From positions 1-59,565 of the forward strand of contig JADZEY010000040.1 of NCBI GenBank assembly GCA_020850315.1: a stretch of DNA of 59,565 bases, given 5' to 3'. Shown here in pieces: positions 1 through 14,200 of the stretch. Under the pieces are notes generated by a model, which was not told where the DNA came from, did no database searches, and worked only from the letters and a program-made list of their open reading frames with translations. The stretch comes from Armatimonadota bacterium (GTDB lineage: Bacteria > Bacteroidota > Ignavibacteria > OLB7). A program made the position numbers and the translations under genes. Position 1 is the stretch's first letter, and each line of letters opens with the position of its first letter.

Positions 1-2898
1 ATTAGCGGTGGTCGTCGGAACCTGATCACCAGCGTTAGCGATGCCACGATCGGTGGAGGCGACTCGAATCAAGTGTCGGCTGGTGCGCAGTATGGCACAA
101 TCGGCGGTGGTCGTCGGAACCTGCTGACCAATAGTGCCGTCGCATCGGTGATTGCTGGCGGTGATACCAACGTCATCACCGACGGCTCGCAGTATGGCGC
201 GATTAGCGGCGGTCGCCGGAACCTGATTACCAACGTTAGCAATGCCACGATCGGTGGAGGCGACTCGAGTCAAGTGTCGTTTGGCGCGCATTACGGTACA
301 ATCGGTGGTGGCCGTCGGAACCTGCTGACGAACAGTGCAGCCGCGTCGGTGATAGCTGGTGGTGATTCCAACACGGTGACTAACGGCTCGCAGTATGGCG
401 CGATTAGCGGCGGTCGTCGGAACGTTGTGGCAAGTGCCAGCTACGGGGCAATCGCTGGTGGCGACTCGAACCAACTGTCACCGGGGGGAACGTATAGCTC
501 GGTTGGTGGTGGCTACGGAAACAACAACGGTGGCCAGTATGCCCACATCGGTGGTGGCCGGAAGAATTTGTTGAACAACAGTTCAACGTCGTCAGTGATT
601 GCTGGTGGTGATTCCAACACGATCACGAACGGTTCAGCGTACGGAGGGATTGGTGGTGGTCGTCGGAACCTGCTGACGAACAATGCCGTCGCATCGGTGA
701 TTGCTGGCGGTGATACTAACGTCATCACCGACGGCTCGCAGTATGGCGCGATTAGCGGCGGTCGCCGGAACCTTGTCACCAATGTGAACTATGCCTCAAT
801 CAGTGGCGGTGACTCCAACCAAGTCTCGTTTGGCGCAGCCTATGGCGCAATCGGTGGTGGCCGTCGGAACTTGCTCTCCAACAGTTCCACATCATCGGTG
901 ATTGCTGGCGGCGATTCGAACATCGTGACCAATGGCGCAGCCTATGGCGCAATCGGTGGTGGCCGTCGGAACTTGCTCTCCAACACATCAACTGCATCGG
1001 TGATTGCTGGCGGCGATTCGAACATCGTAACCGATGGCGCAGCTTATGGCGCAATCGGCGGCGGTCGCCGGAACTTGCTGACCAACACATCAACTGCATC
1101 GGTGATTGCTGGCGGCGACTCGAATGTCGTTACTGGTAACTCCGCCTATGCTGCCATAAGTGGTGGGCAAAACAACTTGATTGATAGCACATCCATTGCC
1201 GGGGTAGTTAGTGGCGGACGTAGCAATACCCTCTTTGGGCCGTACTCCACTATTCTGGGCGGGCGCGGCCTGACAATAGATGCCCCCCGTAGTGTCGGCT
1301 TCCACGCCAACACCCCGGCTGGCGACCGAAACATGACCATTGCCGACACCGCCATTGCCCTTTTCGGCAACACCGATCTCTGGCTTGCCAACAACGACAA
1401 CGCGCCGAGTGAGCTTCGGTTCTTCGAGGCCTACAACGCTGCGGGTGCATTCCCGAACACGGCCAACTACACAGCCTTCAAGGCACAGACGCAAACTGGC
1501 GACATCACCTACACGCTGCCGGCGGCCAATGGAACCGCAGGGCAAGCACTTGTGGTAGCTGCAGCACCCGCACCAACCGCAACCACAGCAACGTTGGAGT
1601 GGGCAACCCCAGCCAACAATGATTGGTCGCTAACCGGCAACAGCCTCACAACGCCAGGAACGAATTTTTTGGGAACCACCGACAACCAAGCCTTTGAGAT
1701 TCACGTTGACAACGGCGGCACCGCCACCGAAGGCCGCCGCCGTGTGATGCGATTTGAACCGAACGCAATAAGCGCGAACATCATCGGCGGGTTCAACGGC
1801 AACAGCGTGACGGCGGGTGCGGTGGGCGCAACGATTGCTGGCGGCGGAGCCAACGGCAGCACCAACAGTGTGACGGATGATTATGGAGTGGTTGGTGGCG
1901 GAGCCGCCAACCATGCCGGCAACAACGCCGGAGGTATAAGCGATGCTCAGTTTGCAACGGTGGGGGGGGGCTATGACAACACGGCTTCGGCAAACTATTC
2001 GACGGTGGGGGGGGGACAAAGCAACTGGGCTTCGGCAAACTTTTCGACGGTGGGGGGGGGCTATAACAACACGGCTCAGGGAGGAATTTCGACGGTAGGG
2101 GGGGGCGATATCAACACGGCTTCGGGAGACTATTCGACGGTGGGGGGGGGACAAACCAACACGGCTTCGGGAGATTTCTCGGCTATCCCCGGCGGCCTTG
2201 GCCTAACGCTGGATGCCGCTGCCGACCGCAGCTTCGGATTCCACGCCAACAACAGCGGTGCCTCACTTCCAATGACCATCAGTGCCTCGGATGTTGCCGT
2301 CTTCGGCAACACCGATCTCTGGCTTGCCAACAACGACGGCGCAGCAAGCGAGCTTCGGTTCTTTGAAGATTACAACACTGCGGGTGCATTCCCGAACACA
2401 GCCAACTACACAGCCTTCAAGGCACAGACGCAAACTGGCGACATCACCTACACGCTTCCGGCGACCAACGGTGCAGCTGGGCAAGTGCTTTCTGTTGCTG
2501 CCACTCCTGCTCCAACAGCAACCACTGCAACGTTGGAGTGGACCGCGAACGGTTCCACCATCATCAACTCCACAAACTCCACCAACACTGGCGGCGGCGC
2601 GTTCGGTGGCCAGCAAGATGACCTTGTAATCAGCAGCACTGCCACCTTCTTCCGGATGGAGACATCGGTCTCTGGTGGCATTGACCTTACCGGAATTGCG
2701 GGCGGGGTGGATGGTCGCCAGATCGTCCTTTGCAACATCGGTACTGATGACATCATCCTGAAACATCAAGACGGTGGCTCGCTTGCGGCAAACCGATTCC
2801 AAATAGCAGGCGGCGATATTACGTTAGGCACCGATGGCATTGCCACCTTGATCTACGACTCAACCTCCGGCTTCTGGCGCGTTGTCTCCACGAACTAA
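1..2898 (+). CDS. Repeat-rich adhesin-like surface protein, 5'-truncated
   Basis: The reading frame is open to the left edge, so the true start lies outside the window; about 965 residues are visible. The first ~400 residues are 34-residue repeats made of two 17-residue halves, one centred on GGGRRNLLxN and one on AGGDSNxVT. Next comes a conserved linker (RSVGFHAN..MTI, LWLANNDNAPSELRFFEAYN, NYTAFKAQTQTGDITYTLPA), then a short GGG head segment (STVGGG..NTASG) with runs of 8-9 G in the DNA at 1962-2150, then a second linker. The tail, near DGRQIVLCNIGTDD, resembles C-terminal caps of fibre-like proteins. The GGG repeats resemble YadA/hemagglutinin head repeats, so a beta-roll stalk at the cell surface is inferred. 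The paralogue follows 42 bases downstream. No transmembrane anchor or clear T9SS tail is visible. Confidence 0.75.
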   Translation: MSGGRRNLITSVSDATIGGGDSNQVSAGAQYGTIGGGRRNLLTNSAVASVIAGGDTNVITDGSQYGAISGGRRNLITNVSNATIGGGDSSQVSFGAHYGTIGGGRRNLLTNSAAASVIAGGDSNTVTNGSQYGAISGGRRNVVASASYGAIAGGDSNQLSPGGTYSSVGGGYGNNNGGQYAHIGGGRKNLLNNSSTSSVIAGGDSNTITNGSAYGGIGGGRRNLLTNNAVASVIAGGDTNVITDGSQYGAISGGRRNLVTNVNYASISGGDSNQVSFGAAYGAIGGGRRNLLSNSSTSSVIAGGDSNIVTNGAAYGAIGGGRRNLLSNTSTASVIAGGDSNIVTDGAAYGAIGGGRRNLLTNTSTASVIAGGDSNVVTGNSAYAAISGGQNNLIDSTSIAGVVSGGRSNTLFGPYSTILGGRGLTIDAPRSVGFHANTPAGDRNMTIADTAIALFGNTDLWLANNDNAPSELRFFEAYNAAGAFPNTANYTAFKAQTQTGDITYTLPAANGTAGQALVVAAAPAPTATTATLEWATPANNDWSLTGNSLTTPGTNFLGTTDNQAFEIHVDNGGTATEGRRRVMRFEPNAISANIIGGFNGNSVTAGAVGATIAGGGANGSTNSVTDDYGVVGGGAANHAGNNAGGISDAQFATVGGGYDNTASANYSTVGGGQSNWASANFSTVGGGYNNTAQGGISTVGGGDINTASGDYSTVGGGQTNTASGDFSAIPGGLGLTLDAAADRSFGFHANNSGASLPMTISASDVAVFGNTDLWLANNDGAASELRFFEDYNTAGAFPNTANYTAFKAQTQTGDITYTLPATNGAAGQVLSVAATPAPTATTATLEWTANGSTIINSTNSTNTGGGAFGGQQDDLVISSTATFFRMETSVSGGIDLTGIAGGVDGRQIVLCNIGTDDIILKHQDGGSLAANRFQIAGGDITLGTDGIATLIYDSTSGFWRVVSTN

Positions 2899-2940
2899 TC
2901 CAATAACAGTATCCAATCAATCCAAAAGAACCAATCAACC

Positions 2941-5900
2941 ATGAAGAGATTCTTTCTTGCTCTGGCAACTGTTATCGGGATTGCTTCCGCTGTGGCCAAC
3001 GCACAAACCTACAAATCCACCTACGCCACCAAGCTCTATCTATCCGGCGGTGGCTCGCCGATCACTCCATTGATCCTTCAATCCCCCACGCTTGGCGGCA
3101 CCTGGACACTGACCCTTCCGACAGGTCCAGGAGCAGCAGGGCAGTTCCTGCGGACAGATGGGAGCGGGGTTACAACATGGGTCACATCAACTGTCACCTT
3201 CCCATTGTCGGCAACCGTTAGCGATGCTGGCGTTCTGTTCAGCCTAACCAACACCGGAACGGGGGGGGCGGGATTGTTCGCGATAACCAACGCCGGAAGC
3301 AGCGCGGCTGCGTTGGCAGCAAGCACCACCGGAACCGGCCCAGCGATTTCGGCAACCGGACGGGTCCAGATCAACGATGGCAACCTTGTGGTTGCCAACA
3401 CCGGAACTGCCGGCGAGCTTCGATTGCAGGAACCGAACGGAACCGGAAGCGATTACACAGCCCTGAAGGCCCAAGACCAAAGCGGAAACAACATCACCTA
3501 CACCCTGCCAGCCGCCAACGGAACCGCTGGGCAAGCCTTGCGGATTGCCAGCACGCCAGCCCCCAGCGCAACGGCAGCAACGCTTGATTGGGGAAATCCA
3601 AACCCCGGCGGTGCGGCCGGTGGCGATTTAACCGGAACGTACCCAAACCCAACCATCACCAACGATGCCATCGGTTCCGCCGAGATTGCCGACAACACCA
3701 TTACCGGTGCGGATATCCTGAACGGCACGGTGGATAATGTTGACATCGCCAATGATGCCGTCACCGCCAGCAAAATTGCTTCCAACGCCGTCAATGCCAG
3801 CGAGATTGGAGCCAATGCCGTTGGCAGCTCCGAGATAGATGACAACGCAATCGGCAACGCTGAGATGGCCGACAACGCGATTGGCAATGCCGAAATGCTG
3901 GACAACGCAATCGGCACGGCAGAGATTGCCGACAACAGCGTTTCCAGCACTGATATTCTGGACAACACCATCACCAACGCCGACATTGCCGACAACACGA
4001 TAGCCCTGGGGAAGATCAGTTCATCCGGAGCCAGCAGCAATCAGGTGATCAGTTTCGACGGCAGCAACATCGTCTGGGCAACGCCAGCGGCCAGCAATGA
4101 TTGGTCGCTAACCGGCAACGCCGGAACAACTGCCGGAACGAATTTTTTGGGAACCACCGACAGCGTGGCGTTGGAGCTAAAAGTGTACAGCAGTGACGCG
4201 ACCGCCAACCGAGGGAGCAAACGTGTGATGCGGTTCGAGCCGAACGCGACCAGCGCGAACATCATCGGCGGGTATCAAGGCAACAGCGTGACGGCGGGAG
4301 CGGTAGGCGCAACGATTGCTGGTGGCGGTGTCAACGGAGACATCAACAGCGTGACGGACGATTATGGGGTCATTGGTGGTGGGGGAAACAACCAAGCGGG
4401 CAACAACGCAGGAGGAACCAGCGACCGTCTGTATACAACGGTAGGAGGGGGCTTCGGTAACATAGCTTCGGGATACGCTGCCACGGTGGGGGGGGGGAAT
4501 ATCAACATGGCTTCGGGATACATCTCAGTGGTGGTGGGGGGTACTGGCAACGTGGCTGCAGGGGACTTCTCCGCCGTTTGGGGTGGCCGCGGATTAACGC
4601 TGGATGTTGATGCTGACCGCAGCTTTGGTTTCAATGCTAACGACCCGATTGCTGGGCGTGCGATTACGATCAACACTCCTGACATTGCTGTCTTCAATAA
4701 CACTGATCTGTGGCTTGCTAACAACGACAACGCACCGAGTGAGCTACGCTTCTTCGAGGCGTACAACATCCCCGGAATCTTCCCAAACACCGCCAACTAC
4801 ACCGCGTTCAAGGCGCAAACGCAGACGGGGAATATCACCTACACCCTTCCAGCATCTGCCCCAGCCAGCAACGGCGATGTGATGACAGCAACCACGGCGG
4901 GAGTGATGAGTTGGGCCGATGCAGATTCGATTGCGACAGCCAACGCATGGGGCTTAACGGGCAACGGTGGAACCAACCCAGCAACCAACTTCCTGGGAAC
5001 CACCAACAACCAAGCCTTCGAGATTCGGGTTGACAACGGTGGAACCGCCACCGAAGGTCGCCGCCGTGTGATGCGATTCGAGCCGAACTCCACAAGCGCG
5101 AACATCATCGGCGGGTTCAACGGCAACAGCGTGACGGCGGGGGTGCTTGGCGCAACGATTGCTGGTGGTGGATCCAACGGATTCACGAACATGGTGACGG
5201 ATGATTATGGAGTGGTAGCTGGCGGGCGGAACAACCGAGCAGGGAATAATGGAGGAGGAACCAATGATGCCACATTTGCGACGGTGGGAGGTGGCTCGAC
5301 CAACACGGCTTCGGGAAGTAATTCGACGGTGGGGGGGGGGCAAAGCAACACAGCATCGGCAAACTCTTCGACAGTGGGGGGGGGCATTTATAACACGGCA
5401 TCGGCAAACTCTTCGACGGTGGGGGGGGGCTATACCAACACGGCTTCGGGAACCTCTTCGACGGTGGGGGGAGGCTATACCAACACGGCATCGGCAAACT
5501 CTTCGACGGTGGGGGGGGGGCAGACCAACACGGCTTCGGGATTGTTTTCGACGGTGGGTGGGGGCAATACCGACACAGCCTCGGGGGACTACTCCACCGT
5601 TGGCGGCGGCATCAGCAACCGCGCAACCGGGATTTATACGACAGTGGTTGGTGGGTCGCAGAACCGTGCCACAACCAGTGGCGGGTTTGTGGGTGGCGGC
5701 GCAAACAATCTTTCCAACGCTAACATGGCAATCGTGGTTGGTGGCGAGAATGATTCCGCCACCGGCCAGTGGGCGTTTGTTGGCGGCGGCTACAGCAACG
5801 TTGCCAGCGGCTACCGCTCGGTGGTGGTTGGCGGCGGTGCCAACACCGCAACCAATAACTATGCAACCGTTGGCGGCGGCATTGATAACGATGCCACAGG

Positions 5901-8900
5901 GGAGTTTACTACGGTGGCAGGGGGGCGCGCCAATGCAGCAACTGGTAATTATGCCGCCATTGGTGGTGGCCAAAGCGACACCGCCAGCGCTCCATTTGCA
6001 GTGATTGGCGGTGGCTTCCAAAACAACGCGGCGGCGGCGGGGTCGTTCATTGGTTCGGGATCATCCAACCGTACGATTGCCGGTGCCAGCGATGCCACAA
6101 TCGGCGGCGGAGCCTACAACTACGCAAGCGGCTACCGCTCCACCATTGCCGGTGGCGAAAGCGACACCGCTACCGGCTCGATTGCCGCGATTGGCGGCGG
6201 CTTCAAAAACAAAGCCAGCGGCGACCGCTCCACCATTGGCGGTGGCGAAAGCAACACCGCCAGCGCAACCGCCACCACTGTTGGCGGCGGCATCAGCAAC
6301 AGCGCAACCGGGATTAACTCCACCGTTGGTGGCGGCAGCGGCAACAGCGCAGCCGGGGCCAACAGCGCAATCCCCGGCGGACGCGGGATGACCCTGGACG
6401 CAAGCGCGCTCCGCAGCTTCGGCTTCAACAGCAACAACGGAGCCGGAACCTTGCCAATGACCATCAGCACCCCCGACGTAGCCGTCTTCGGCAACGCGGA
6501 TTTGTGGCTTGCCAACAACGACAACGCGCCAAGCGAGCTTCGGTTCTTCGAGGGGTACAACGCTTCGGGTGCATTCCCAAGCACGGCCAACTACACGGCG
6601 TTCAAGGCGCAAACGCAAGCGGCGAACATCACCTACATTCTTCCCGACACCATTGGGATTATTGGTGATATGCTTCAAGTGAAATCGGTTTCCAGCGGAA
6701 CAGCAACGCTGGATTGGGCAGCAGCAACGGGTGGAAGCGGTTGGTCGCTAACGGGGAACAGCGGCACAACCGACGGCACAAACTTCCTGGGAACGACCGA
6801 CAGCGTGGCGTTGGAGCTAAAAGTGTACAGCACTGACGCAACCGCCAACCGAGGGAGCAAACGTGTGATGCGGTATGAGCCGAACGCGACAAGCGCGAAC
6901 ATCATCGGCGGGTATCAAGGCAACAGCGTGACGGCGGGGGCGGTTGGCGCAACGATTGCTGGCGGTGGAGCAAGCGGCAGCACCAACAGCGTGACGGATG
7001 ATTATGGGGTGGTAGGTGGTGGAACGAACAACCGTGCCGGCGACAATACGGGAACAACCAGCGACCGTTCGTATGCCACAGTAGGTGGTGGCACAGGCAA
7101 CACGGCTTCGGGAGGTTACTCAACCGTGTCGGGCGGCGTATCCAATACCGCTTCGGGAGGCGTTTCGACGGTGGGCGGAGGCAATGGCAACACAGCTTCG
7201 GGGAATAATGCAACGGTGGGTGGGGGCTTGTTCAGTGTGGCATCAGGAACCCATTCGACGGTTGGTGGGGGTGATTCTGACACAGCATCAGGAAACTCTT
7301 CAACGGTGGCTGGTGGCTTTCGTAATGTGGCTTCGGCAGACGCTTCAACAGTGTCAGGTGGCAGTTCCAACAGGGTGTCGGGGGGGTATTCGACGGTGAG
7401 CGGTGGCTTTAGGAACCTGGTCTCGGGAACGTATGCAACGGTGGGTGGCGGGTATGGCGACACAGCCTCGGCGAACTATGCGACGGTAGGTGGCGGGTTC
7501 TACAACATAGCATCTGACGACTACGCAACAGTGGGTGGTGGCCAAGACAACAAAGCCTCGGCGGACTATGCAACGGTGGGTGGTGGTTTGAACAACATGG
7601 CATCGGGGGGCCGCTCGGTGGTGGGTGGTGGTACGGCCGACACAGCTGCGGGTGATTTTTCAGCAATCCCCGGCGGTCGCGGCCTAACGCTGGATGCCAA
7701 TGCCGACCGCAGCTTCGGCTTCCATGCTAACAACAGCGGCGGTTCACTTCCAATGACCATCAGTGCCTCGGATGTCGCCGTCTTCGGCAACGCCGATTTG
7801 TGGCTTGCCAACAACGACAACGCGCCAAGCGAGCTTCGGTTCTTCGAGGGGTACAACGCTTCGGGTGCATTCCCAAGCACGGCTAATTACACAGCGTTCA
7901 AAGCGCAAACGCAAGCCAACGACATCACCTACACGTTGCCGGCAACCAATGGGTCTGCTGGGCAAGTGCTGGCGGTTGCGGCGACGCCGACGCCAACAGC
8001 AGCCGCTGCAACGTTGGAGTGGGCGACGGTTGGTGGGCTTACTACCGTTACCCATGATGCAACACTAACTGGCGATGGAACAATAGGCAGCCCGCTGGGG
8101 ATCGCTCTGAACCATAGCAATACATGGACGGCTGATCAGACGTTCAACAGCTCATTCTTAATCGCGCGAAACGCACGGATTGCCATGACCAACAACGATA
8201 ATAACGCCAGAGATCTTCGTTTCCAGGAACCAAGCGGTAGCGGAACCCAGTACATCGGTTTGCGTGCCCCATCGGTCACCAATAACGGGAACTATGTGTT
8301 GCCAGCCGTAGTCGGATCGGTGGGTCAAGTAATGGCTATTCAAACCACAAACGGGATAGATTCCGCAAGGCTAGAGTGGCGGGATCCGCTAACCCTCCCC
8401 TTCAGCAACACCACCAGCAGCGCAAGCACGCTGTTTGATGTTACCAATAGCGGGGCGGGTCAAGCTGCCAATTTCAATATCAGCGGAGCCAAAACCGCAA
8501 GCACCACCACCGCAGTGGTGGATAACGATGCCACCAACACCACCACCGACGGGGTCAACAAAACCGTACTTGCGGTGACAAGCAGCGGCGATTTTAGCGG
8601 AAGCGGTGGCACGGCCACCAATGCCACGGGAATTGATGTGAGCATGACCGGAACAGGAGGGGACAACAGCACTGGCCTTGCCGTTTCGGTTGCTGGCACC
8701 AACGCTATTGGGGTGAACATCTCTGCAGGGCGTGTTCTTCTTTCCACGCAATCATTCGCTGCCTGCGGAACAAACAACTGCGCCCTGACAGCGGTTAATA
8801 ACAACGTAGCGATTGTGGTAGTAGGGGATAACGGATTGGACTTGACTGGTGCGGGAAACGACCCGAATCTGACCCTTCCGGCATCGGCATCATCGGGTCA

Positions 8901-9018
8901 AGTCATCTGGGTGTATAATGATGATGTCAACGATGGCATAGATGTGGCCACGCCCGCAGTAAACATCCCAGCCAGCGGCTCGCGAATGTTTGTCTATGCT
9001 GGCGGAACATGGCGGTAA
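2941..9018 (+). CDS. Giant repeat-rich adhesin-like exported protein
   Basis: A 2025-residue protein with a clear signal peptide (MKRFFLALATVIGIASA, cleavage near ANAQT). After a unique N-terminal region it has a decapeptide-like array at about residues 239-361 (units such as DNAIGNAEMA and DNTITGADIL). It then has three large modules. Each has a type-specific lead-in (TNFLGTTDSVALELKVYSSD or TNFLGTTNNQAFEIRVDN), the text RRVMRFEPN..ANIIGG, a block of about 15-residue STVGGGxxNTASG repeats, and the LWLANNDNAPSELRFFE linker shared with the upstream gene. G runs of 9-10 occur at 4488-4497 and 5331-5520. The C-terminus (ASGSRMFVYAGGTWR) parallels that of the upstream paralogue (YDSTSGFWRVVSTN). 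A surface beta-roll fibre is inferred from the YadA-head-like repeats; ligand and anchoring are unknown. A strong terminator follows. Confidence 0.8.
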   Translation: MKRFFLALATVIGIASAVANAQTYKSTYATKLYLSGGGSPITPLILQSPTLGGTWTLTLPTGPGAAGQFLRTDGSGVTTWVTSTVTFPLSATVSDAGVLFSLTNTGTGGAGLFAITNAGSSAAALAASTTGTGPAISATGRVQINDGNLVVANTGTAGELRLQEPNGTGSDYTALKAQDQSGNNITYTLPAANGTAGQALRIASTPAPSATAATLDWGNPNPGGAAGGDLTGTYPNPTITNDAIGSAEIADNTITGADILNGTVDNVDIANDAVTASKIASNAVNASEIGANAVGSSEIDDNAIGNAEMADNAIGNAEMLDNAIGTAEIADNSVSSTDILDNTITNADIADNTIALGKISSSGASSNQVISFDGSNIVWATPAASNDWSLTGNAGTTAGTNFLGTTDSVALELKVYSSDATANRGSKRVMRFEPNATSANIIGGYQGNSVTAGAVGATIAGGGVNGDINSVTDDYGVIGGGGNNQAGNNAGGTSDRLYTTVGGGFGNIASGYAATVGGGNINMASGYISVVVGGTGNVAAGDFSAVWGGRGLTLDVDADRSFGFNANDPIAGRAITINTPDIAVFNNTDLWLANNDNAPSELRFFEAYNIPGIFPNTANYTAFKAQTQTGNITYTLPASAPASNGDVMTATTAGVMSWADADSIATANAWGLTGNGGTNPATNFLGTTNNQAFEIRVDNGGTATEGRRRVMRFEPNSTSANIIGGFNGNSVTAGVLGATIAGGGSNGFTNMVTDDYGVVAGGRNNRAGNNGGGTNDATFATVGGGSTNTASGSNSTVGGGQSNTASANSSTVGGGIYNTASANSSTVGGGYTNTASGTSSTVGGGYTNTASANSSTVGGGQTNTASGLFSTVGGGNTDTASGDYSTVGGGISNRATGIYTTVVGGSQNRATTSGGFVGGGANNLSNANMAIVVGGENDSATGQWAFVGGGYSNVASGYRSVVVGGGANTATNNYATVGGGIDNDATGEFTTVAGGRANAATGNYAAIGGGQSDTASAPFAVIGGGFQNNAAAAGSFIGSGSSNRTIAGASDATIGGGAYNYASGYRSTIAGGESDTATGSIAAIGGGFKNKASGDRSTIGGGESNTASATATTVGGGISNSATGINSTVGGGSGNSAAGANSAIPGGRGMTLDASALRSFGFNSNNGAGTLPMTISTPDVAVFGNADLWLANNDNAPSELRFFEGYNASGAFPSTANYTAFKAQTQAANITYILPDTIGIIGDMLQVKSVSSGTATLDWAAATGGSGWSLTGNSGTTDGTNFLGTTDSVALELKVYSTDATANRGSKRVMRYEPNATSANIIGGYQGNSVTAGAVGATIAGGGASGSTNSVTDDYGVVGGGTNNRAGDNTGTTSDRSYATVGGGTGNTASGGYSTVSGGVSNTASGGVSTVGGGNGNTASGNNATVGGGLFSVASGTHSTVGGGDSDTASGNSSTVAGGFRNVASADASTVSGGSSNRVSGGYSTVSGGFRNLVSGTYATVGGGYGDTASANYATVGGGFYNIASDDYATVGGGQDNKASADYATVGGGLNNMASGGRSVVGGGTADTAAGDFSAIPGGRGLTLDANADRSFGFHANNSGGSLPMTISASDVAVFGNADLWLANNDNAPSELRFFEGYNASGAFPSTANYTAFKAQTQANDITYTLPATNGSAGQVLAVAATPTPTAAAATLEWATVGGLTTVTHDATLTGDGTIGSPLGIALNHSNTWTADQTFNSSFLIARNARIAMTNNDNNARDLRFQEPSGSGTQYIGLRAPSVTNNGNYVLPAVVGSVGQVMAIQTTNGIDSARLEWRDPLTLPFSNTTSSASTLFDVTNSGAGQAANFNISGAKTASTTTAVVDNDATNTTTDGVNKTVLAVTSSGDFSGSGGTATNATGIDVSMTGTGGDNSTGLAVSVAGTNAIGVNISAGRVLLSTQSFAACGTNNCALTAVNNNVAIVVVGDNGLDLTGAGNDPNLTLPASASSGQVIWVYNDDVNDGIDVATPAVNIPASGSRMFVYAGGTWR

Positions 9019-11120: not shown

Positions 11121-11279
11121 CCCCATTGCATCGCTTCCTCATCCCCCCCCCATGAAACCAAACTTCACCTCCCCCGATTCCAGTGCCGCCGTAAGTTTGC
11201 GCACGGGTCGGCATCACACAATGCGCAGCCCTTCCCGGAAACGAACCAACGCTACGGCTCCATCCACTTCTGCACGACC

Positions 11280-14200
11280 ATGCTTATTCTTCGCGGCGCA
11301 CCTGCACTCTCACCCTTCCGCATTGCTCGCTTGCTTTCCACGCTTGCGTGCCAGCACCCGCATATCTCCGCTCTGTATGCCGAATTTGTTCACTTTGTGG
11401 AGACGGAACGTCCGCTCACTGAAGCCGAGCAAACGGTGCTGAACCGGCTGCTGGAATACGGCCCCGCGCTGGAATCGCACACGCCGGAAGGGACGCTTCT
11501 GCTGGTGACACCACGCCCGGGTACCATCTCACCTTGGTCCAGCAAGGCAACCGACATTGCCCACAACTGCGGGCTTCGGGCGGTGGAGCGGATTGAGCGG
11601 GGAACCGCCTACTACTTGGCTTCGGCCCAAGAATTAGGGGAGCAAGAGCTTGGCGCGATTGCCCGGCAACTGCACGACCGTATGACCCAATCGGTCTTCA
11701 CCCAGATGGAGTTTACTGCAGAATTGTTCCGCCACGCCACGCCCCAACCCTTTTCCACGATTGACCTGCTAACCGGCGGACGCGCCGCGCTTCAGGAGGC
11801 CAACCAACAGCTTGGCCTTGCCCTTGCCGATGATGAAATTGACTACCTTCTGAACAGCTTCACCGCGCTTGGCCGCAACCCGAACGACATTGAGTTGATG
11901 ATGTTCGCGCAAGCCAACAGCGAGCATTGCCGCCACAAAATTTTCAACGCCAGCTGGACCATTGATGGCCAAGAACAAGAGCAATCGCTCTTCTCGATGA
12001 TCCGCAACACCTACAACGTTGGCGGGGAAGGTGTGCTGTCGGCCTACAGCGATAACTCGGCGGTGATCCGTGGGTTCGATGCGCACCGGTTTTTCCCGAA
12101 GCCGGGGGCAAGCCAGTATCAGTTCCACCACGAGCCGACGCACATCCTGATGAAGGTGGAGACCCACAACCACCCGACGGCAATCTCACCTTACCCCGGT
12201 GCCTCCACCGGTTCCGGCGGTGAAATCCGCGACGAAGGGGCAACCGGGCGCGGCGCAAAACCAAAAGCTGGATTGACCGGCTTCACCGTCTCCCACCTCC
12301 GAATTCCCGGGCTTGAGCAACCGTGGGAAGGTCCCGAACGGAAGCCCGGGCGAATCGCTTCGCCGCTGGAGATTATGACCGAAGGACCAATCGGCGGCGC
12401 GGCGTTCAACAACGAGTTTGGCCGCCCTGCGCTGGCCGGATATTTCCGCACGTTCGAGCAAACAATCCCCGGCCCCAACGGCCCCGAAACCCGTGGCTAC
12501 CACAAGCCGATTATGATTGCTGGCGGTTACGGCAACATCCGCGAACAGCATGTGGAGAAAAAAGAGTTTGCCCCGGGATCGCACATTGTGGTGCTTGGCG
12601 GTCCGGCAATGCTGATCGGCTTGGGTGGCGGCGCGGCAAGCTCCATGTCCACCGGAAGCTCCGATGAAGATCTGGATTTTGCCAGCGTCCAGCGGGATAA
12701 TGCCGAGATGGAACGCCGCTGCCAGGAGGTGATTGACCGCTGCTGGGCGTTGGGCTCCGATAACCCGATTGAGTCCATCCACGACGTTGGCGCGGGGGGA
12801 TTAAGCAACGCACTTCCCGAGCTTGTGAACGATGCAGGGCGGGGGGCAGCATTCCAACTGCGTGCGGTGCCGAACGCCGAGCCGGGGATGTCGCCGATGG
12901 AGATTTGGTGCAATGAGGCGCAAGAGCGATACGTGCTGGCGATCCGCGCCGATGCGATTGCGGCGTTTGAAGAAATCTGCCGCCGCGAACGCGCCCCGTT
13001 TGCCGTGGTGGGCGTGGCAACCCAGGAACCTCAGCTTCTGCTGGAGGATTCCACATTTGGCAACCGCCCGATTGATATGCCGCTGAACGTGCTGCTGGGG
13101 AAGCCCCCAAAAATGCACCGCGTTGCCCAGCATCTTGAACGCCAGCTCACCCCATTTGTTGCCGACCAGATTGACCCCAACGATGCCGCCCAGCGGGTGC
13201 TGAAGTTCCCCGCCGTTGCCGATAAATCGTTCCTGATTACCATTGGCGACCGCACCATCACCGGAATGGTTGTACGCGATCAGATGGTGGGGCCGTGGCA
13301 GGTTCCCGTTGCTGATGTTGCCGTCACGACCACCGCCTACGAAGGCTTCACCGGCGAGGGGATGGCAATGGGGGAACGCACGCCGCTTGCGTTGCTGAAC
13401 GCGCCAGCATCGGGCCGAATGGCGATTGGCGAAGCGATCACCAACATCGCCGCAGCGCGAATCGAACAACTTGGCGATGTGAAACTTTCCGCCAACTGGA
13501 TGGCCCCCGCCGGCTACCCGGGCGAAGATGCCGCCCTGTACGACACCGTCCGTGCCGTTGGAATGGAGTTGTGCCCCGCGCTTGGCATCACCATCCCGGT
13601 CGGGAAGGACTCCATGTCCATGCGGACGGTGTGGCAGGGGGAAAACGGGGAACCGCAGAGCGTCACCGCACCGGTCTCACTGATCATCAGTGCGTTTGCT
13701 CCGGTGACTGATGTTCGCCACACCCTTACGCCGCAGCTTCGGACGGAGAAAGGTGAGACGATTCTGATGCTGATTGATCTTGGAAACGGGCGGAACCGTT
13801 TGGGGGGATCAATTCTTGCGCAAGCCTACGATGCCTTGGGGAACGAAGCTCCCGACCTTGACGACCCAGAATTGCTGATCGGATTCTTTGATGCGGTGCA
13901 ACAACTCAATCAGCAAGGGCTGATCCTTGCCTACCACGACCGCTCCGATGGCGGCCTGTTTGCAACCCTTGCCGAGATGGCCTTTGCCGGAAAAACTGGG
14001 CTGGAAATTGACCTTACCAACATTGACCCTAACCCGGTTGCAGCCCTGTTCAGCGAGGAACTTGGCGCGGTGATTCAGGTGGCAACCGAGCATCGTGAGG
14101 AGGTGCTGGCAATCCTTGCCGAGCATGGATTGGGCTACAACTGCCACATCATCGGGACGGTGGTGGATCAGGATCGGATCAGTTTCGGCCACAACGAACA

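Follow-up and report, generated by a model that had tools for sequence, protein, structure and literature searches.

G runs in two adjoining fibre genes of a Chlorobiota genome: probable by-products of one amplified and diversifying 45-bp repeat unit

Two adjoining fibre genes of a draft Chlorobiota genome carry eleven G runs of 8-10 bases, and these runs are probably a by-product of one recently amplified, diversifying 45-bp unit, slippage within them being an occasional side effect. The window, i.e. the whole stretch of DNA analysed (59,565 nucleotides), forms the beginning of contig C40 in the assembly (4.24 Mb, 138 contigs). Since it begins at the contig start, the frame of the first gene (gene A) is open at its 5' end, which lies beyond that point. 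Used as tblastn query, gene B retrieved 82 segments within its own genome, indicating a large paralogue family of which genes A and B are two adjoining members. Housekeeping genes (QueG, FGAR amidotransferase, DnaB) follow downstream. A run of nine C bases is found on the + strand at window positions 11143-11151, just ahead of the FGAR amidotransferase ORF, which starts at 11280. Features of the two fibre genes are listed in Table 1.

Table 1. Fibre genes, repeat arrays and G runs in the window; L024 is the corresponding locus of the genus relative
Feature	Position	Strand	Evidence and remarks
Gene A, repetitive fibre gene, 3' part (965 codons within window)	1..2898	+	open frame; repeats; ortholog upstream of gene B in L024
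G runs of gene A (length)	1962-1970 (9), 2007-2015 (9), 2052-2060 (9), 2098-2105 (8), 2142-2150 (9)	+	homopolymer scan
Module of 939 bp, in frame, flanked by direct repeats GCAACGTTGGAGTGG at 1588 and 2527	1588..2541	+	carries first run-bearing array
Array 1, five 45-bp units, G runs at 1962, 2007, 2052, 2098, 2142	1954..2178	+	
Gene B, fibre gene of 2025 codons, signal-like sequence at N-terminus	2941..9018	+	open frame; ortholog in L024 over residues 1-2025
G runs of gene B (length)	3261-3268 (8), 4488-4497 (10), 5331-5340 (10), 5376-5384 (9), 5421-5429 (9), 5511-5520 (10)	+	homopolymer scan
G8 run outside arrays	3261..3268	+	within TGTGGAG; G7 in genus relative via G/C substitution, frame kept
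Array 2, two units, G10 run 4488-4497	4435..4524	+	~0.6 identity to relative; 135-bp (three-unit) length difference
Array 3, seven units, runs at 5331, 5376, 5421, 5511	5278..5592	+	identity to relative 0.50-0.60; 225-bp (five-unit) length difference
Remainder of array, mostly GGC/GGT spelling	5593..6381	+	0.74-0.93 identical to relative; beta-roll model together with array 3
Further array without G runs of at least 8	7066..7680	+	UspA1_rep above Pfam cut-off; seven-unit difference from relative

Direct homopolymer scan located all eleven runs exactly where the sequence-only reading had placed them. According to that reading, all but the run at 3261-3268 encode STVGGG. Ten of the eleven do encode the V-GGG of a 15-residue repeat, with ATVGGG in place of STVGGG in the units at 1962 and 4488. 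All ten occupy one and the same position of the 45-bp unit (S/A)TVGGGxxNTASGxx, a constituent of beta-roll arrays resembling the UspA1 head, and nine of them sit in two tandem arrays with 45-bp period. The G runs are not independent events. With the exception of 3261, they are located in the middle or late part of the gene. Nor are they forced by the protein, as had been proposed: elsewhere in these genes, other units spell the same glycine triplet GGTGGTGGC, GGCGGCGGC and otherwise, and run-free spellings are common within both.

Density of G runs is far above background here. A sample of ~450 kb served as genome background. In ~330 kb of ordinary coding sequence, runs of at least 8 bases number 20 for G and 5 for C, compared to 11 in ~3.6 kb of the window. 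GGG represents 35% of glycine codons genome-wide, GGGGGG at Gly-Gly pairs was observed 105 times with 106.8 expected, and no avoidance of G runs was seen in ordinary genes of the background sample. The frequency of GGGGGG being as predicted from codon usage, runs of this kind are nothing unusual for the genome, and it is copying of one unit that accounts for their density in the fibre genes. G or C tracts of at least 11 bases (loci L065-L084 of the same genome) are mostly intergenic, 12 of the 14 seen, despite ~89% of the sampled sequence being coding by a crude ORF call.

The run-bearing units constitute one subfamily with the consensus TCG ACG GTG GGG GGG GGC NNN NNC AAC ACG GCT TCG GNN NNC NNT. 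This subfamily is present on five contigs (C40, which is the window, C8, C53, C90 and C109), with some units shared unchanged between loci. When units were selected on silent sites not belonging to the glycines, GGGGGG was found in 33/41 of them, as opposed to 2/40 of the remaining units. We propose that, in this lineage, copies of one 45-bp unit have recently spread inside several genes of the family and from one gene to another, most likely by tandem and paralogue recombination. Because the unit spells its glycines GGG GGG GGC, nearly every copy would carry a run of 8-10 bases, and the runs would be hitchhikers on the amplified unit. About five residues per unit would meanwhile diversify under strong diversifying selection on a framework of nearly identical DNA, and selection for open frame would keep nearly all copies intact, with slippage occasionally breaking one.

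More notable than the G runs themselves is the distribution of differences among the copies, nearly all of which fall at a few amino acid positions, the remaining DNA being nearly frozen. Framework pS equals 0.15 in run-bearing units and 0.65 in other units. At five codons per unit, pN reaches 0.55 in run-bearing units, compared to 0.61 in older ones. Codons 8, 14 and 15 display mismatch of 0.642 at positions 1-2 and 0.187 at position 3. The ratio of the two is 3.4, with a bootstrap interval of 2.3-6.9 that is optimistic because units are taken as independent although they are not; in other units the ratio is ~1.1. Such a pattern is expected if amplification was recent and was accompanied by strong diversifying selection or by shuffling of variants under selection. 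Fixed third bases with nearly random positions 1-2 at codons 8, 14 and 15, as well as a TAG at variable codon 7 on C90, also bring to mind a diversity-generating retroelement or similar templated mutagenesis as the source of the variable codons. We consider this hardly conceivable, as consensus positions other than adenine vary too and the genome yielded neither a reverse transcriptase (no RVT_1 match) nor a template-like copy outside the family, all DNA matches to the array falling inside the family save one 19-bp chance match.

The nearest named relative, a genome of the same genus (Chlorobiota MAG-306, contig JAEUSP010000136.1), served for comparison. Outside the arrays, gene B is mostly 80-90% identical to its counterpart at DNA level; in run-bearing segments, identity falls to about 0.50-0.63 and array length differs by whole units (135 bp, i.e. 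three units, and 225 bp, i.e. five). The 939-bp module is missing from the corresponding place of the relative: in blastn of the window against L024, segments 547-1603 and 2294-4400 both reach L024 positions 6851-7099. Judged by these alignments, the run-bearing arrays have been turned over since the genus split. In the motifs, GGG-GGG occurs in 3/82 cases in the relative and in 35/81 here. A survey of 198 genomes drawn from the phylum, a set to which the genus relative does not belong, gave 31 matches to the run-bearing motif in the genome studied here and 1 in the 197 others, and the peptide motif in any spelling was found in 42 genomes of the same draw.

The run-bearing segments are those that diverged and changed in unit number after the genus split, and so did a run-free array near 7561, by seven units. 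That the former are among the most changed segments would suit an activity of G runs at DNA level, e.g. as sites promoting breakage or recombination and thereby driving unit turnover. Such a role is very unlikely, given the altered unit number of run-free arrays and the full set of arrays that the relative possesses almost without runs.

Homopolymer tracts of about 7 bases or more that set the reading frame are represented here by the eleven runs of 8-10. It had been predicted that slippage in any of them would shift the frame, and simulation bears this out: +/-1 changes lead to a premature stop 5-224 codons later in every case. Both gene A and gene B have open frames as assembled, and in repeat units of the whole family 36/37 runs of at least 7 bases are in frame. 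The exception is found on contig C8 (L029 position 941), where a G8 stands in place of the G9 that the frame needs and a stop follows ~35 codons on; past the frameshift, the original frame is open to its normal stop. Slippage can thus break genes of this family, and the C8 copy may be an instance of it. This frame-breaking G8 speaks against hitchhiking, as it is what a contingency locus would show. In a draft consensus, however, a population switch, a dead copy and an assembly error look alike. Another family member (contig C96, L040 about 3987-4710) is interrupted by an in-frame TGA and apparently changes frame. Since this stretch contains no G run of at least 7 bases, family genes evidently break without runs as well. 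On C90 (L030 4313-4357), an in-frame TAG occupies hypervariable codon 7 in a run-bearing unit that is regular in all other respects, a lesion unrelated to the runs.

Unit number and order were taken from the draft assembly, in which several arrays end at contig ends. Contigs C90 and C53 overlap by 117 bp at their ends and may together represent a single gene. These circumstances could be taken to mean that the runs or the C8 frameshift are artefacts of assembly or consensus calling. Such an origin is highly improbable considering that runs of 9 are short relative to reads, that all family runs but one are in frame and that the same unit recurs on five contigs; the lone C8 frameshift could still be an artefact.

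The sequence-only reading regarded the runs as candidate contingency loci. Such loci would be tracts selected for slipped-strand mispairing that switches the fibre on and off reversibly. Their lengths do lie within the fast-mutating range of Campylobacter tracts (PMC8224891). The genes are predicted to encode surface proteins, every +/-1 change truncates the product, one paralogue is broken at its run, and UspA1 employs a G tract, though one upstream of its ORF. If runs were maintained as switches, their interruptions should be rarer than other silent changes of the unit. This expectation failed: third-base changes affect 10/82 glycine sites and 26/209 other fourfold sites (Fisher p=1, a test of limited power that by rough estimate misses effects below about twofold), and in the run-bearing subfamily no keeping of tracts beyond codon use and descent was found. 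Further, runs are nearly absent from the genus relative, which encodes the same repeats. Both mutS1 and mutL are present with scores over cut-offs; in other bacteria, indels in homopolymers are kept strongly in check by mismatch repair (PMC5854121). Tracts within bacterial genes tend to lie in the first fifth of the coding sequence (PMC2823697), whereas those seen here are mostly in the middle or late part. With ~5 tracts per gene, the OFF state would be much easier to reach than ON, yet nearly all runs are in frame. Contingency is a possible reading, one prediction of which, preferential retention of runs, is not borne out, and we consider it unlikely. Somewhat less probable still is a two-tier variation in this Chlorobiota lineage, in which shuffling of units would alter the variable residues and slippage of runs would silence or shorten the fibres, so that one amplified unit would yield both antigenic and phase variation.

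With hitchhiking on the amplified unit as the preferred explanation, unit amplification and high GGG usage account for whole series of slippage-prone G runs in surface genes, which is a caution against inferring phase variation when only sequence is at hand. The arrays have the appearance of fast-diversifying surface repeats in a little-studied lineage, with a framework nearly frozen including its silent sites. If reads showed mixed run lengths, antigenic and phase variation would be linked in one repeat unit.

The view that the genes encode repetitive secreted fibre-like proteins was upheld. The repeats match the UspA1 head (PDB 3pr7) in phmmer with E 1.9e-27, a value affected by strong composition bias, and Pfam PF18792 (UspA1_rep) scores 42.1 bits over 7066-7788 of gene B at a cut-off of 27. 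An AlphaFold2 monomer model shows a regular all-beta repeat solenoid (pLDDT 87.5). Foldseek search of the PDB with this model gave no significant match; assignment of the fold relies on the sequence match and on the model. Together these two support the presence of head repeats of the YadA/UspA1 type. No C-terminal YadA membrane anchor was detected in Pfam scan of both proteins or in NCBIfam, where no family matched. We refer to the products as putative UspA1-head-like fibre proteins and do not call them trimeric autotransporters; an adhesive function seems plausible. As for phage tail-fibre origin, no relative was confirmed in viral contigs and no PHROG matched better than E 0.05.

UspA1 of Moraxella catarrhalis, with its repeat sequence of the STVGGGxxNxAxG type, is the nearest solved relative. 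It is a phase-variable surface protein subject to modular variation between strains, and its phase-variable G tract sits upstream of the ORF (PMC7302503). Here, by contrast, the runs lie inside the head repeats, and no YadA-type anchor was found. The poly-G contingency loci of Campylobacter jejuni are similar in that G8-G10 tracts lie within reading frames of surface genes. They differ from the present case, where the many tracts of each gene, spaced with 45-bp period, derive from a single copied unit, the genome has both mutS and mutL, and run lengths come from one draft consensus. TAL effector repeats are an example of concerted tandem repeats with variable residues. Their fold and function are unrelated to those of the fibres, but they share with the arrays near-identical repeat DNA and few hypervariable codons, features common to paralogues in both cases.
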